The position numbers and the translations under genes are program-made. From a virus, in the IMG/VR virus record IMGVR_UViG_3300042197_001242, positions 1 to 21,655 of that record: a DNA stretch of 21,655 bases, one strand, 5' to 3'. Shown here in pieces: positions 7,899 through 21,655 of the stretch. Each line of letters opens with the position of its first letter. Within the stretch, counting starts at the first letter, position 1. A model generated the notes under the pieces. That model was not told the DNA's origin. It did no database searches and saw nothing but the letters and a program-made list of their open reading frames with translations.

Positions 7899-7906
7899 TC
7901 ACTAAG

Positions 7907-7926
7907 ACCCGCAAGGGTTTTTTTTT
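7907..7926 (+). terminator. Terminator ending the early replication operon
   Basis: ACCC-GCAA-GGGT (7907-7918) is a compact hairpin with a GNRA-type loop, followed by an uninterrupted T run to 7926. The last T is also the first base of a late promoter box. Confidence 0.85.
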
Positions 7927-7933
7927 ATAAATA
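7926..7933 (+). promoter_or_regulatory. T4-type late promoter TATAAATA
   Basis: A perfect late box continues directly out of the terminator T tract. The predicted start near 7939 is about 22 nt before the next gene. This marks the switch from early to late genes. Confidence 0.8.
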
Positions 7934-16284: not shown

Positions 16285-18575
16285 GTAACGGAACAAAGGT
16301 ACAAAAGCGTGATGGTCGAATTGAATCTCTTGACCTAGACAAGATGCATTTGATGGTTGAAGAGGCATGTAAGGGTCTTGCAGGCGTGTCTGCGAGTCAA
16401 GTTGAAATGAAGTCGGGAATTCAGTTTTATAGTGGAATTTCGACTGGAGAGATTCAAGAGATTCTGATTCGTTCTGCTTCTGATTTGATTGATTTGGATC
16501 ATCCAAACTATCAATATGTTGCTGCTCGTCTACTTCTTTTTTCTGTAAGGAAGTCACTTTATGGAAAAATGAAAGAACTTCCACATCTTGAAGAACACAT
16601 TTATACTTGTGTTAATGTTGAAGTTTATGATAACGAAATTTTTAATAAGTACTCTAAAGAAGAGATTGATTCGGCTAACAGTTTTATCAATCATGATCGT
16701 GACATGCTATTCACTTATGCAGGTCTACGTCAGGTCGTTGATAAGTACCTCGTACAGGATAGGAGCAGCGGCGGTGTATATGAAACCCCACAATTTATGT
16801 ACATGATGATTGCTCTGACTATTTTTGCAGAGTATCCAAAAGAAACTAGAATGTCATATGTCAAGAGGTATTATGACGCAATCTCAAAGCACAAAATCAA
16901 CATTCCCACACCTATCATGGCGGGGGTTAGAACTCCACTTCGACAATTTGCTAGCTGTGTCCTTGTTGACGTTGATGACACCCTCGATAGTATCTTTAGC
17001 AGTGATATGGCTATTGGTAGATACGTGTCACAGAGGGCGGGCATCGGTATCAACGCAGGTCGCATCAGGGGTATCAACAGTAAAATCAGAGGTGGAGAAG
17101 TCCAGCACACTGGCGTTGTACCATTTCTCAAAAAGTTTGAAGCAACTGTCCGTTGCTGCACGCAAAATGGTATACGAGGAGGAAGCGCGACGGTCCACTT
17201 CCCAATCTGGCACCAAGAAATCGAAGACATTCTAGTTCTTAAGAATAACAAAGGAACTGAAGATAATCGAGTTCGTAAACTTGACTATTCTATTCAAATT
17301 TCTAAGTTGTTCTATGAAAGATTTATTCAAGACGGTGAAATCACCCTTTTCTCTCCGCATGATGTTCCTGGACTTTATGATTCTTTCGGACTCCCTGAGT
17401 TTGACGACTTATATGTTGCATATGAGAACGATTCGTCCATTCCGAAAAAAGTTATTAGGGCACAAGAACTTATTCTTAATCTTCTTAAAGAAAGGGCTGA
17501 AACAGGTCGTATCTACATCATGAATATTGACCACTGTAATTCTCACTCCTCCTTTAAGGATAAAGTGAGTATGAGTAATCTTTGTCAGGAAATTACTCTA
17601 CCTACAGATCCTCTTCAACATATCGATGGTGGAGGTGAGATTGCCTTATGCATTCTTTCTGCAATTAATGTTGGTAAAGTAAAATCTGATGAAGAACTTG
17701 AGGACCTTTGCGACCTTTCAGTTCGTGGTTTAGACGAGTTGATCGATTATCAAAAATACCCTGTAGTGGCGGCAGAAATCGCCACCAAGGCACGTCGTTC
17801 ACTTGGTATAGGGTTTATTGGTCTAGCACACTATTTGGCAAAACTTGGGTATAACTATTCATCTCAAGAAGCTTGTGATGCTGTCCATGGACTTTCTGAG
17901 TCATTCCAATATTATCTACTAAAAGCATCTAACCAACTTGCCAAGGAAAAGGGATACTGTGAATATTTTGGGCGTACCAAATATTCTGATGGTATTCTTC
18001 CAATTGATACATACAAGAAAGATGTGGATGAAATCTCTTCTATTCCTTACCAGCATGATTGGGAAACACTTAGAAAATCTATTCTTACCTACGGTCTCAG
18101 GCACTCAACACTGTCCGCACAGATGCCATCGGAGAGCAGTTCCGTTGTGTCAAACGCAACCAACGGAATCGAACCACCTAGAGGATACTTGTCCGTTAAA
18201 AAATCAAAGAAAGGGCCTCTTAAACAGATTGTTCCGCAATATCATACTTTAAAAAATAACTATACTCTTTTGTGGGAAATGCCTGACAATCGTGGTTATA
18301 TTAATATTGTTGCTGTGATGCAAAAGTTCTTTGATCAGGCTATTTCTGGTAACTGGAGTTACAATCCAGAGAACTATGATGATAATGAAGTTCCTGTGTC
18401 AGTTATGGCAAATGACTTTTTGACTACATACAAGTACGGGTGGAAAACTTCTTATTACCAAAACACTTACGACATTAAAACTGATGAGGTGATAGAAGAG
18501 AAACCCAATCTTCAAAATTTGCTAAGTGAGTTAAGTTCAGTAGAGGAGGGAGAGTGTGAATCCTGTGCAGTTTAA
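16281..18575 (+). CDS. nrdA: Ribonucleotide reductase class Ia, large subunit NrdA
   Basis: NrdA converts ribonucleotides to deoxyribonucleotides, supplying phage DNA synthesis together with NrdB. The 764-residue protein has an N-terminal ATP-cone-like region (KRDGRIESLDLDKM, about 9-22). Catalytic residues align with E. coli NrdA: C226 in QFASCVLVD, the N433-L-C435-Q-E437 centre, and C457 in GGGEIALCILS. The radical-transfer pair is Y725-Y726 (YYQNTYD), and a C-terminal redox pair C759/C762 (CESC) lies at the tail. It overlaps gp61 by four bases and nrdB by 20. Codons between about 16900 and 17250 are noticeably more GC-rich than the rest of the gene, around the substrate-binding region. Confidence 0.97.
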   Translation: MSNGTKVQKRDGRIESLDLDKMHLMVEEACKGLAGVSASQVEMKSGIQFYSGISTGEIQEILIRSASDLIDLDHPNYQYVAARLLLFSVRKSLYGKMKELPHLEEHIYTCVNVEVYDNEIFNKYSKEEIDSANSFINHDRDMLFTYAGLRQVVDKYLVQDRSSGGVYETPQFMYMMIALTIFAEYPKETRMSYVKRYYDAISKHKINIPTPIMAGVRTPLRQFASCVLVDVDDTLDSIFSSDMAIGRYVSQRAGIGINAGRIRGINSKIRGGEVQHTGVVPFLKKFEATVRCCTQNGIRGGSATVHFPIWHQEIEDILVLKNNKGTEDNRVRKLDYSIQISKLFYERFIQDGEITLFSPHDVPGLYDSFGLPEFDDLYVAYENDSSIPKKVIRAQELILNLLKERAETGRIYIMNIDHCNSHSSFKDKVSMSNLCQEITLPTDPLQHIDGGGEIALCILSAINVGKVKSDEELEDLCDLSVRGLDELIDYQKYPVVAAEIATKARRSLGIGFIGLAHYLAKLGYNYSSQEACDAVHGLSESFQYYLLKASNQLAKEKGYCEYFGRTKYSDGILPIDTYKKDVDEISSIPYQHDWETLRKSILTYGLRHSTLSAQMPSESSSVVSNATNGIEPPRGYLSVKKSKKGPLKQIVPQYHTLKNNYTLLWEMPDNRGYINIVAVMQKFFDQAISGNWSYNPENYDDNEVPVSVMANDFLTTYKYGWKTSYYQNTYDIKTDEVIEEKPNLQNLLSELSSVEEGECESCAV

Positions 18576-19746
18576 AATTTCTTCTACGGAAGAACCACAA
18601 ACAAATATTAAAGGAATGACGGTTTTTAATACTGAACAAGTGAATACTAAAAAGCAACCTATGTTTTTTGGTAAACCCCTTGGGATACAACGATATGATT
18701 CATACAAATATCCTGTATTCGATAAACTGACTACTCAGCAATTGGGATACTTCTGGAGACCCGAAGAGGTGTCTCTTCAGAAGGATCGTGGAGATTATCA
18801 AACACTTCGTCCAGAGCAAAAGCATATCTATACTTCTAACCTGAAGTATCAGATTATGCTTGATTCTATTCAGGGTCGTGGTCCTGGTATGGCATTTATT
18901 CCATATTGCTCTTTGCCAGAACTTGAAGCATGTATGGAGGTGTGGGGATTCATGGAAATGATTCACTCACGTTCATACACATATATCATTAAAAATGTAT
19001 ATTCAGATCCTAGTGAGGTGTTCGACAAAATAGTGACCGATGAACGCATTCTGGAACGTGCCAAAAGCGTTACAGAATCATATGATGACTTTATTCAATC
19101 ATCTCAAGAATATGGTGCTTCTAATATTTGGATGCACAATATTGAAGGAGTTTCATACGCAAAGGAAACACTTAACGATGTTAAACGAAAATTATACAGA
19201 GCAGTCGCAAACGTTAACATTCTTGAAGGTATTCGCTTCTACGTTAGTTTTGCTTGTAGTTTCGCCTTTGGCGAACTTAAGCTTATGGAAGGATCCGCTA
19301 AAATCATCTCTCTTATCGCAAGAGACGAAAATCAACATTTAGCCATTACGCAGAATATTCTGAACAAATGGCGCGATAGTGATGATCCAGAAATGAAGCA
19401 GATTATGAAAGAAGAAGAGGAGTGGACATATAAGATGTTTAATCGTGCCGTAAATGAAGAAAAGCGATGGGCAGATTATCTGTTCAAAGACGGCAGCATG
19501 ATTGGACTTAACGATAAACTTCTTCAACAATATGTTGAGTGGATTGCTAATAGGCGACTTAAGGCAATAGGACTAAAACCTCAATACGACATTTCAGCAA
19601 ACAATAATCCACTTCCTTGGACACAGCACTGGATTTCCTCCAAAGGACTCCAGGTGGCTCCCCAGGAAACAGAAGTAGAAAGTTATGTAGTTGGTGGAAT
19701 CAAACAAGATGTGAAAAAGGACACATTTAGTGGCTTTAAATTGTAA
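18556..19746 (+). CDS. nrdB: Ribonucleotide reductase class Ia, small subunit NrdB, GTG start
   Basis: The diiron-tyrosyl radical subunit that activates NrdA. The 396-residue product aligns well with E. coli NrdB. Iron ligands D103 (MLDSIQGR), E134, H137, E224, E258 and H261 are all present. The radical tyrosine Y141 lies in MIHSRSY, with conserved radical-path and C-terminal contacts (VAPQETEVESY). The start is a GTG at 18556: GGAGG at 18545-18549 sits six bases upstream and no ATG is near. It overlaps the end of nrdA by 20 nt. The first 30 residues are variable and precede MFFGKPLGIQRYD, where similarity to NrdB begins. A terminator follows the stop at 19770. Confidence 0.97.
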   Translation: MNPVQFKISSTEEPQTNIKGMTVFNTEQVNTKKQPMFFGKPLGIQRYDSYKYPVFDKLTTQQLGYFWRPEEVSLQKDRGDYQTLRPEQKHIYTSNLKYQIMLDSIQGRGPGMAFIPYCSLPELEACMEVWGFMEMIHSRSYTYIIKNVYSDPSEVFDKIVTDERILERAKSVTESYDDFIQSSQEYGASNIWMHNIEGVSYAKETLNDVKRKLYRAVANVNILEGIRFYVSFACSFAFGELKLMEGSAKIISLIARDENQHLAITQNILNKWRDSDDPEMKQIMKEEEEWTYKMFNRAVNEEKRWADYLFKDGSMIGLNDKLLQQYVEWIANRRLKAIGLKPQYDISANNNPLPWTQHWISSKGLQVAPQETEVESYVVGGIKQDVKKDTFSGFKL

Positions 19747-19762
19747 TAATACAATTAAAACT

Positions 19763-19770
19763 TATAGATA
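19763..19770 (+). promoter_or_regulatory. Late promoter-like TATAGATA fused to a terminator
   Basis: TATAGATA differs from TATAAATA by one base. It directly abuts the terminator stem, and the predicted start near 19776 falls inside the 5' arm. The same geometry recurs at 21063, which raises confidence. Confidence 0.4.
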
Positions 19771-19796
19771 GAGGAGGTAACCCCTCCTCTTTTTTT
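19770..19796 (+). terminator. Terminator after nrdB
   Basis: An 8-bp perfect stem AGAGGAGG/CCTCCTCT (19770-19777 with 19783-19790) has a five-base loop and seven Ts. The next ATG begins at the base after the last T. Confidence 0.9.
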
Positions 19797-19952
19797 ATGA
19801 TTCACATTACAGATATTTTCTCATTAAAGGCAAAAGTAGAAAAACTTAAATTTAAATTAGACGAAGAATTAATATCAAGCCACGAGAAGTGGATTGCTCA
19901 TAAATATCTGAATCATGTTTTAGATTATATTGATGAGTTGCGATTACGATAA
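19797..19952 (+). CDS. 51-aa small helical protein
   Basis: A 51-residue frame beginning MIHITDIFSLKAKVEKL and ending IDELRLR. It is charged and probably helical with a short coiled-coil stretch. Its ATG directly follows the T tract of the nrdB terminator with no free Shine-Dalgarno; the only GGAGG is in the 5' arm of that hairpin, 20 nt upstream. It overlaps the following GIY-YIG gene by 20 nt. The function is unknown. It is supported by its fit in the gap and its overlap, but the start site context is peculiar. Confidence 0.65.
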   Translation: MIHITDIFSLKAKVEKLKFKLDEELISSHEKWIAHKYLNHVLDYIDELRLR

Positions 19953-20370
19953 TCCGTGGTATTATAATGGAGAGCCTTTTGAATCTAAAGATATTGAAGA
20001 CTATTTTGGATTTGTTTATTTGATAGAAAATAAATTAAACGGTCGGAAATACATAGGTAGAAAATATCTATGGCAATTTAGAACTCCGAAAGGTAAAAGT
20101 CGTAAAGTTAAAACAGAATCAGATTGGAAAAAATACTATGGGTCTTGTCCAGAACTTAAAGAAGACGTTGACAAATTTGGCAGAGAGAATTTTAGTCGAA
20201 CTATCTTATCATTACATAAAACAAAGGGCAAAACAAATTTTGGAGAGACCAGTCAACTCTTCAAGCACGATGTCCTCACAGAATCACTTGACAACGGAGA
20301 ACCAGCATTCTACAATAGCAACATCTTGGGACGGTTCTACCGAAAAGATTATTATGGAAACAACGACTGA
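19933..20370 (+). CDS. GIY-YIG endonuclease-like protein (SegE type)
   Basis: A 145-residue protein with the GIY-YIG nuclease layout. FVYLIE (27-32) stands in for GIY, followed by ENKLNGRKYIG with YIG at 40-42. R43 and further basic residues come next, then SDWKKYYGSCPELKEDVDKFG (63-83), then NFSRTIL, and a likely catalytic E105 in NFGETSQLF. This matches the T4 SegE-type freestanding endonuclease domain rather than an intron-borne homing enzyme, and no DNA-binding tail follows. Such proteins cut DNA at specific sites and spread by homing, but in cyanophages many are fixed accessory genes. ATG 19933 is preferred to the TTG three bases upstream. It overlaps small genes at both ends and carries an internal promoter near its 3' end. 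Confidence 0.85.
   Translation: MSCDYDNPWYYNGEPFESKDIEDYFGFVYLIENKLNGRKYIGRKYLWQFRTPKGKSRKVKTESDWKKYYGSCPELKEDVDKFGRENFSRTILSLHKTKGKTNFGETSQLFKHDVLTESLDNGEPAFYNSNILGRFYRKDYYGNND
20288..20316 (+). promoter_or_regulatory. Sigma-70-type promoter inside the GIY-YIG gene
   Basis: TTGACA at 20288-20293 and TACAAT at 20311-20316 have a 17-nt spacer. The predicted start near 20323 would give the 57-aa gene at 20354 its own transcript. Confidence 0.65.
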
Positions 20371-20527
20371 AGATATTGTCGCGCACGTAAGAGGATGGTC
20401 TCTTGATCGCGCTGCTGACAAAACCGTTGATAGGGAGGATGCCAGAGCAATTCTTGCTGAGTTTTATGAATGGATTGAACCTGAAGATGATGAACTTGAG
20501 ATTGTCTCTCTAGAACCCGAAGATTGA
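20354..20527 (+). CDS. 57-aa acidic small protein
   Basis: A 57-residue strongly acidic protein beginning METTTEDIVAHVRGW and ending SLEPED. It has a helical centre (DREDARAILAEFYEWI). It overlaps the GIY-YIG stop by 17 nt and lies about 31 nt after a predicted start site. It could be a small early inhibitor-type protein by size and charge, but there is no specific evidence. A longer in-frame open stretch begins at 20138 inside the GIY-YIG gene; ATG 20354 is the sensible start. Confidence 0.7.
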   Translation: METTTEDIVAHVRGWSLDRAADKTVDREDARAILAEFYEWIEPEDDELEIVSLEPED

Positions 20528-20552
20528 CAATCTCTAAATATTCACTTATAAT
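20524..20552 (+). promoter_or_regulatory. Perfect sigma-70-type promoter with a late box in its spacer
   Basis: TTGACA at 20524-20529 and TATAAT at 20547-20552 are 17 nt apart. The spacer contains CTAAATA at 20534-20540, matching the late variant seen at 8996 and 13175. The -35 overlaps the stop codon of the 57-aa gene. Early start near 20559; late start near 20546. Confidence 0.8.
20534..20540 (+). promoter_or_regulatory. Late promoter variant CTAAATA
   Basis: CTAAATA within the spacer of the sigma-70-type promoter; the preceding bases TCT match the other two copies. Confidence 0.4.
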
Positions 20553-20555
20553 GTT

Positions 20556-20582
20556 AAGATTCACAACTAAGTGAATCTTTTT
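20556..20582 (+). terminator. Terminator-like hairpin after the 57-aa gene
   Basis: A perfect 9-bp stem (20556-20564 with 20571-20579) with a six-base loop and five Ts. It lies between the promoter at 20524 and the RlpA-like gene, so transcripts from that promoter begin at or inside its 5' arm. Confidence 0.75.
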
Positions 20583-20620
20583 CGCTATGAGACTTTGATT
20601 TTGATTTAGAGCCGTGGAAG

Positions 20621-21062: not shown

Positions 21063-21070
21063 AATAAATA
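21063..21070 (+). promoter_or_regulatory. Late promoter AATAAATA fused to a terminator
   Basis: A canonical NATAAATA box abuts the terminator stem at 21070. By T4 spacing the start is near 21076, inside the 5' arm, so the transcript would lose most of the hairpin. Confidence 0.6.
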
Positions 21071-21100
21071 GAGGAGAGCGGTTGCTACTCCTCTTTTTTT
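21070..21100 (+). terminator. Terminator after the RlpA-like gene
   Basis: A 7-bp outer stem AGAGGAG/CTCCTCT (21070-21076 with 21088-21094) and an inner AGC/GCT pair set (21077-21079 with 21084-21086) enclose a GGTT loop with one bulged A. Seven Ts follow and the next ATG is immediate. Confidence 0.88.
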
Positions 21101-21511
21101 ATGTTCAATTTTAACTTCGGAAAGAAGAAACCAGATAAGAAGCAGATAATCCTTATAAGCGCCATACTCGGTGGTATCTTAGCAACCCTCTCCCAGTGCT
21201 CTGGAGTGCCTCAGGAGCGTCTCTGGGACATTCTAGACGAGGTACAGAGGTCTCTGTTCCCACAGACCATTATCAACGATGTCCTGCTCCAAGATCCTGG
21301 TGTGGTGGAGAGGAGAGTTGAGAGGGATGTGGATAAGGCTATTCGTGAGTATGAACGCTTGACAGGTGACTCTTCTACACCTAGAATACCTTTGCCACGG
21401 TTGATAGAAAAAGTTCCGGATAAAGCTTTATGTCATTCTGAAGAGTGTAAAAAACTTGGAGGAGAAATGAGACTCTGTGCTCCGTGGATTGACACCTGTA
21501 AAGAGGAGTAG
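21101..21511 (+). CDS. Membrane-anchored protein with C-terminal cysteines
   Basis: A 136-residue protein. A basic N-terminus (MFNFNFGKKKPDKK) leads into one hydrophobic helix at 15-31 (IILISAILGGILATL), then C33. An extracytoplasmic-type remainder has an amphipathic charged helix (68-88) and four cysteines near the C-terminus (C111, C116, C126, C133). These could pair as disulfides outside the membrane. The sequence around C33 is a poor lipobox. It lies next to the secreted RlpA-like gene, so a lysis or envelope role is possible but unproven. AGG, CTC and CTG codons and higher GC from about 21140 onward differ from neighbouring genes, which suggests separate ancestry. Its start directly follows a terminator T tract with no free ribosome site. 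Confidence 0.75.
   Translation: MFNFNFGKKKPDKKQIILISAILGGILATLSQCSGVPQERLWDILDEVQRSLFPQTIINDVLLQDPGVVERRVERDVDKAIREYERLTGDSSTPRIPLPRLIEKVPDKALCHSEECKKLGGEMRLCAPWIDTCKEE
21359..21387 (+). promoter_or_regulatory. Sigma-70-type promoter inside the membrane protein gene
   Basis: TTGACA at 21359-21364 and TAGAAT at 21382-21387 are 17 nt apart. It is upstream of and in tandem with the promoter at 21489. Confidence 0.5.
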
Positions 21512-21603: not shown

Positions 21604-21655
21604 ATGGGGCAGCAGCATGACGGATCATGCACCATCCTTCTAAGATGTAAGATGG
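21604..21655 (+). CDS. Start of a further gene, cut by the window end
   Basis: ATG 21604 has an ideal Shine-Dalgarno (GGGAGG at 21592-21597, six bases before). The frame begins MGQQHDGSCTILLRCKM and is open to the end of the window. An in-frame ATG 12 codons upstream (21568) lacks a ribosome site. A strong promoter lies at 21489-21517. Too little is visible to identify the product. Confidence 0.5.
   Translation, partial: MGQQHDGSCTILLRCKM

Follow-up and report, generated by a model that had tools for sequence, protein, structure and literature searches.

Late genes controlled by a hairpin at the start of the message are known from phage T4, where e and 49 have been named as examples (PMC3014915; PMC2988022). 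In T4 e, soc, 49 and I-TevI, and also in mobE of phage Aeh1 and in segB (all Straboviridae), the promoter lies at the 5' arm of the hairpin, as it does in the cyanophage element described here; late RNAs lack this arm, while early and middle read-through RNAs fold the complete hairpin. The 3' arm of these T4-type switches contains the Shine-Dalgarno sequence and the block is translational. A similar asymmetry is found in IS10/Tn10, where transcripts that enter from outside fold a silencing structure and those made from the inner promoter are without its 5' arm; there, however, the ribosome binding site is sequestered without a terminator, and the unit is a mobile element rather than a phage gene unit. 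Phage “moron” units, as mentioned in PMC1524935, carry their own promoter and terminator. To the extent of that mention they resemble the present case in that a gene has its own promoter and is shielded from its neighbours, but in morons a separate promoter and terminator flank the gene, whereas in the cyanophage element the two are fused and placed in front of it. The open-access literature searched contains no description of fused terminator-promoter elements in cyanophages, which is weak evidence of novelty.

The window, i.e. the whole stretch of DNA that was analysed, is a 21,655-base IMG/VR record of a T4-like cyanophage with Kyanoviridae relatives at 74-78% identity, and it contains two copies of the element, both on the + strand. 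Copy 1 (19763-19799) follows nrdB (18556-19746, + strand), the last gene of the upstream unit that this copy would end. Its late box TATAGATA (19763-19770) is a T4-type box and a one-base variant of NATAAATA. The last A of TATAGATA is at the same time the first base of a terminator hairpin (19770-19790) with an 8-bp stem and the 5-nt loop TAACC. The 5' arm AGAGGAGG occupies 19770-19777 and the 3' arm CCTCCTCT 19783-19790, and the seven T that follow the hairpin (T-tract, 19790-19796) run directly into the ATG at 19797. The structure has the sequence of an intrinsic terminator, a GC-rich stem followed by a U-tract. The sequence-only reading that drew attention to this locus had placed the box, the stem, the seven Ts and the start codon correctly to the base. 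It also had transcription starting, at T4 spacing, after six of the eight bases of the 5' arm, and this agrees with the +1 of 19776 that T4 spacing predicts; the predicted leader (19776-19796, + strand) is, as it had said, 21 nt long, pyrimidine-rich and devoid of a Shine-Dalgarno sequence. The complete hairpin (19770-19796) folds with -12.6 kcal/mol (z -3.2), compared to -0.6 kcal/mol for the RNA that would begin at the predicted +1 (19776-19796).

Directly behind copy 1 lies a 51-aa ORF of unknown function (phrog_566; 19797-19952, + strand), the end of which is overlapped by the start of a gene for a SegE-like GIY-YIG nuclease (19933-20370, + strand; PF19835, E=1e-53). The two are probably on one transcript, and the nuclease gene is found downstream of the 51-aa ORF in at least 49 of 70 members of this ORF family. 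I-TevI of the T4-type switches is likewise a GIY-YIG nuclease. A weak late promoter in front of such a pair would fit products needed in low amounts. Inside the 51-aa ORF, at 19900-19906, the conserved HKYLN codons of most family members read CATAAATAT. This is a perfect late box and lies about 30 nt upstream of the start codon of the nuclease gene, so that a late promoter is possibly embedded in this coding sequence.

The arrangement is probably best explained as a self-exempting terminator, a variant of the switch known from T4 genes e and 49 and from I-TevI. The -10 region of a promoter would abut (here overlap by one base) the 5' arm of a hairpin that belongs to an intrinsic terminator, with the T-tract of this terminator extending up to the start codon. 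A polymerase arriving from upstream, from nrdAB in the case of copy 1 and from the RlpA-like gene in the case of copy 2, would transcribe the whole hairpin and stop, or else leave a read-through RNA with its start codon behind a stem. A polymerase starting at the fused promoter, here a gp55-type late box, would begin within the 5' arm, produce an RNA that cannot form the hairpin and thus pass, giving a transcript with a short pyrimidine-rich leader and no Shine-Dalgarno sequence. The downstream gene would in this way be expressed only from its own promoter. Promoter activity, the position of +1, termination in vivo and translation from the leader are what we infer here. In the two window copies the main effect is, in our view, termination, with a block of translation as a likely second one.

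The sequence-only reading had noted that the layout recurs at 21063, and it does so as copy 2 (21063-21101), with a consensus late box. This box, AATAAATA (21063-21070, + strand), matches NATAAATA exactly and is followed by a terminator hairpin of 10 bp with one bulged A (21070-21094, + strand) and by a T-tract (21094-21100, + strand) which abuts the ATG at 21101. The gene behind it encodes a 136-aa protein of unknown function (phrog_3316; 21101-21511, + strand), and its orthologue GC852 in S-PM2 has the same element. Copy 2 folds with -14.0 kcal/mol when complete (z -3.8) and with -4.1 kcal/mol from the predicted +1 at 21076; the weak stem that the predicted late RNA retains (-4.1) counts against the self-exempting reading. 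The window has two instances of the combination of box, abutting GC stem, T-tract and ATG, compared to none in 300 dinucleotide shuffles of it, while a plain terminator scan of the window gave no excess (9 found, 11.2 expected). What is unusual is thus the combination of features and not the terminators alone. The ordinary order is also present, with a terminator at 7904-7921 and a separate ATAAATA at 7927; because the two orders coexist in the window, the fused one is a choice and not the outcome of compactness alone.

The genes behind the two copies, the 51-aa ORF (family A) and the 136-aa ORF (family B), are unrelated. Among their relatives, 52 and 43 distinct ones, respectively, keep the box, the register and the hairpin, with arms that covary. 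The element was found in 52/66 distinct upstream regions of family A and 43/50 of family B (95 variants in total), and the family A members without it are mostly at other genome positions. With the box pattern itself used for calling the elements, the boxes are ATAGATA (28), TTAAATA (16), CTACATA (4), ATACATA (3) and GTAAATA (1) in family A and ATAAATA (42) and CTAAATA (1) in family B, so that TAAATA is present in 43/43 of the latter. In all 95 variants the stem starts between -1 and +3 nt from the end of the box. Median folding energies are -11.8 (A) and -13.8 (B) kcal/mol for the complete hairpin and -0.1 (A) and -3.5 (B) kcal/mol from the predicted +1, which was taken as the sixth base past the box. 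This position is a purine in 94/95 variants, which is partly automatic given the purine-rich 5' arm, and the predicted leader has a Shine-Dalgarno-like word in 1/52 (A) and 0/43 (B) cases. Covariation was measured by swapping 3' arms among variants, with the loops left ungapped by the MAFFT alignment; the mean loss in folding energy per swap is about 3 kcal/mol (z -9.1 for A, -7.3 for B). Native arms therefore fold better than swapped ones, which shows that the arms covary and, in turn, that the hairpin is under selection.

The same variants bear on what the hairpin does. The main rival explanation is that it acts chiefly as a block to translation, like the hairpins of T4 e, soc, 49 and I-TevI, with the T-tract secondary: long early RNAs would carry the stem against the start codon and late RNAs starting in the 5' arm would be free. 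We consider this an unlikely primary function, although it has the T4 precedents behind it (PMC3014915; PMC2988022) and fits a part of the variants well, since many relatives lack a T-tract, and in several of them the distance between hairpin and start codon is 0-3 nt (S-SM2, Bellamy). Variants with four or fewer T in the final eight bases before the start codon make up 18/52 in family A and 6/43 in family B, and most of them have a strong stem, usually close to the start codon, as in TTAAATAGGGGAAGTTAACTTCCCCTCATG of S-SM2. By contrast, 33/52 (A) and 37/43 (B) variants, both window copies included, have at least six T in these eight bases. The 3' arm is rich in C and U and there is no Shine-Dalgarno sequence in the leader; in T4 e and 49 that sequence is carried by the 3' arm. 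The claim that upstream RNA is stopped while the element's own RNA passes agrees with predicted folding and register; because T-poor variants mostly retain a strong hairpin, termination nevertheless cannot be the whole function in all variants, and a block of initiation on read-through RNA can account for the T-poor ones. The layout also occurs with neither a T-tract nor a GC-rich stem, in S-SM2 at 45949 and in Bellamy at 59431 (record coordinates). Here ATAAATA leads directly into an AT-rich stem, TTACATAC/GTATGTAA, and the stem in turn into the ATG of a conserved ORF of 46-50 aa (MEDKK...).

The loop of copy 1 contains UAAC, like the operator loop of T4 gene 43 (PMC3014915), and the hairpin could in principle be an operator for an RNA-binding repressor of the gp43 or RegA type. 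This is very improbable, as the loops vary in length and sequence, inside each of the families A and B as well as from one to the other. With no loop shared by the two families, the idea of one protein that binds the loops of both was rejected.

Screens beyond the window covered 16 T4-like phage genomes (14 cyanomyoviruses, T4 and the Pelagibacter phage HTVC008M) together with the window itself. A strict terminator scan with the late box only gave too few matches and hairpins were screened instead; a loose RNAfold screen gave much background within genes (TAAATA 24.8 per 1000, permutations roughly 10-18) and was replaced by a search for TAAATA in intergenic DNA, directly next to a perfect stem with its end no more than 10 nt from a start codon. 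This layout was found for 10/1016 TAAATA, compared to about 1.4 per 1000 for permuted, non-overlapping hexamers, and for 0/1016 in the same genomes when the stem was moved 6-9 nt further from the box. T4 yields exactly two matches, genes e and 49, which share the box-stem register of the cyanophage elements and speak for the self-exempting as well as for the translational reading. A collection scan for TAAATAGGGG hairpins gave a proximity to start codons like that of a permuted hexamer (45/121 and 42/120), since neither T-tract nor spacing was required there.

Terminators that run into a start codon were compared with control terminators that have no start codon nearby. Among the 28 in the first set, a late box lies at the stem in 4 and a sigma-70 -10 box in 14, giving 18/28 with an abutting promoter box as against 7/175 controls (p=1.8e-13). 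A held-out set (S-SSM7, the greater part of DSL-LC03 and 50-kb segments from three other genomes) gave 4/10 against 0/33 (p=0.0017), and pooling resulted in 22/38 against 7/208 (p=1.6e-15), with no significant signal at other box-stem registers of the pooled terminators. These counts bear on another alternative, namely that the hairpin does no more than terminate the upstream unit, that the A/T-rich box is there by chance, and that the gene depends on read-through or on a different promoter. Copy 1 would suit such a role, with its weak box and as the only strong + strand terminator found by the terminator scan between 7.9 kb and the end of nrdB. Such an explanation is nonetheless improbable: box and register are kept in 95 variants at unrelated genes, the strong excess is seen at this register only, and terminators without a start codon behind them rarely have the box (7/208). 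The sequence, its register, its conservation, the covariation, the predicted folding and the statistical coupling belong to the observed part of the case for a self-exempting terminator.

The layout is not specific to late promoters, and fusion is commoner with sigma-70 promoters. Most sigma-70 members, of which one example is at 168325 in Syn9, have a -35 matching TTGACA at 4-6 positions with a spacing of 16-18 nt, an extended TGN -10, or both, and the RNA that would begin at their predicted +1 folds weakly. In IMG/VR, hexamers abutting a GGGG..CCCC-T6 hairpin were scanned and distinct cases counted among the matches listed: a start codon stands directly behind in 65/107 cases for TATAAT, compared to 13/81 for the scrambled TAATAT (p=4e-10), and in 31/105 for TAAATA, compared to the same 13/81 (p=0.037). 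The genes behind the elements include, by family match, those for a RusA-like resolvase (S-PM2), a GIY-YIG nuclease, a glutaredoxin and Mom-like modification proteins; talC- and purC-like proteins were assigned by inspection of N-termini only. The RusA-like resolvase is a functional counterpart of T4 gene 49. The nearest record of the Mom-like family is from a Roseobacter phage, and the sigma-70 form may therefore extend beyond cyanophages. In host cyanobacterial DNA (1.36 Mb around psbD) the count was 0/7, a sample too small to argue against a host origin. A restriction of the element to homing endonucleases was considered and dropped, since it is missing from most GIY-YIG genes at other positions.

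The late promoters themselves differ in how convincing they are. Upstream of cyanophage genes, sense to antisense counts are 245:8 for ATAAATA, 111:7 for CTAAATA and 28:4 for ATACATA, but 20:9 for ATAGATA and 25:19 for TTAAATA, and the cyanophage late consensus by this orientation bias is (A/C)TAAATA. Because of this difference the box of copy 2 is a consensus box and that of copy 1 a weak late variant. T4 late promoters have an AT-rich segment right after the box (PMC2988020), whereas here GAGGAGG follows in copy 1 and GAGGAGA in copy 2. The 8-bp box of a T4-type late promoter stands about one helical turn before +1; copy 2 has this box exactly and copy 1 with one mismatch. Genome-wide support for the late form is modest, with a late box in 5/38 terminators running into a start codon and the 31/105 for TAAATA against 13/81 (p=0.037). 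The proposal that the composite element insulates early from late transcription holds in so far as the element is real, recurrent and conserved, and proves too narrow with respect to the commoner sigma-70 fusions; as far as sequence can tell, the earlier interpretation is partly supported, right in mechanism and too narrow in scope.

With its CU-rich 3' arm, its T-tract terminator, its leader without a Shine-Dalgarno sequence and its sigma-70 promoters in other copies, the cyanophage element differs from the T4 switches and falls outside the Shine-Dalgarno-sequestering class. It is best called a terminator-type, promoter-class-independent variant of the T4 e/soc/49/I-TevI switch. The architecture is statistically solid and recurrent, and the T4 precedents keep it from being categorically new. 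On balance we lean towards the view that a compact module serves marine cyanophages, and also some other phages of marine origin, as a general device: a -10 box, of either the sigma-70 or the gp55 type, is fused to an intrinsic terminator that reaches the start codon, making single genes deaf to neighbouring transcription and yet switchable. This would be a simple answer to the problem of running co-directional genes on separate schedules in tightly packed phage genomes, and it would extend the late-only hairpin of T4 to transcription termination and to sigma-70 promoters. If true, it would define a class of regulatory element with its own type of leader (short, CU-rich, no Shine-Dalgarno sequence) that precedes RusA-like resolvase, talC, purC, glutaredoxin, Mom-like and GIY-YIG genes. 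Standard annotation assigns a terminator to the gene before it and a promoter to the gene after it, and in this way misses a fused element. Specific predictions follow for every copy, and the compact size (<50 bp) offers a design for insulated promoters in cyanobacteria.

Three further observations concern the rest of the window. Near the end of the record, 21562-21598 matches the Rfam abiF RNA (RF03085, 44.8 bits, gathering 37), which is named after the AbiF abortive-infection system; no AbiF gene is visible before the record ends at 21655. At 20524-20590 a perfect sigma-70 promoter (TTGACA-17-TATAAT) has the late box CTAAATA (20534-20540) within its spacer, and a 9-bp hairpin (20556-20579) and a short T-run follow, upstream of the gene for an RlpA-like lytic transglycosylase; early and late promoter overlap here, and the site is possibly a third fusion, richer in AT. 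Finally, the gene at 19933-20370 falls under PHROG 447, which is labelled NAD synthetase, yet the protein is a GIY-YIG nuclease of the SegE type; the label, repeated in P-TIM68, looks wrong.
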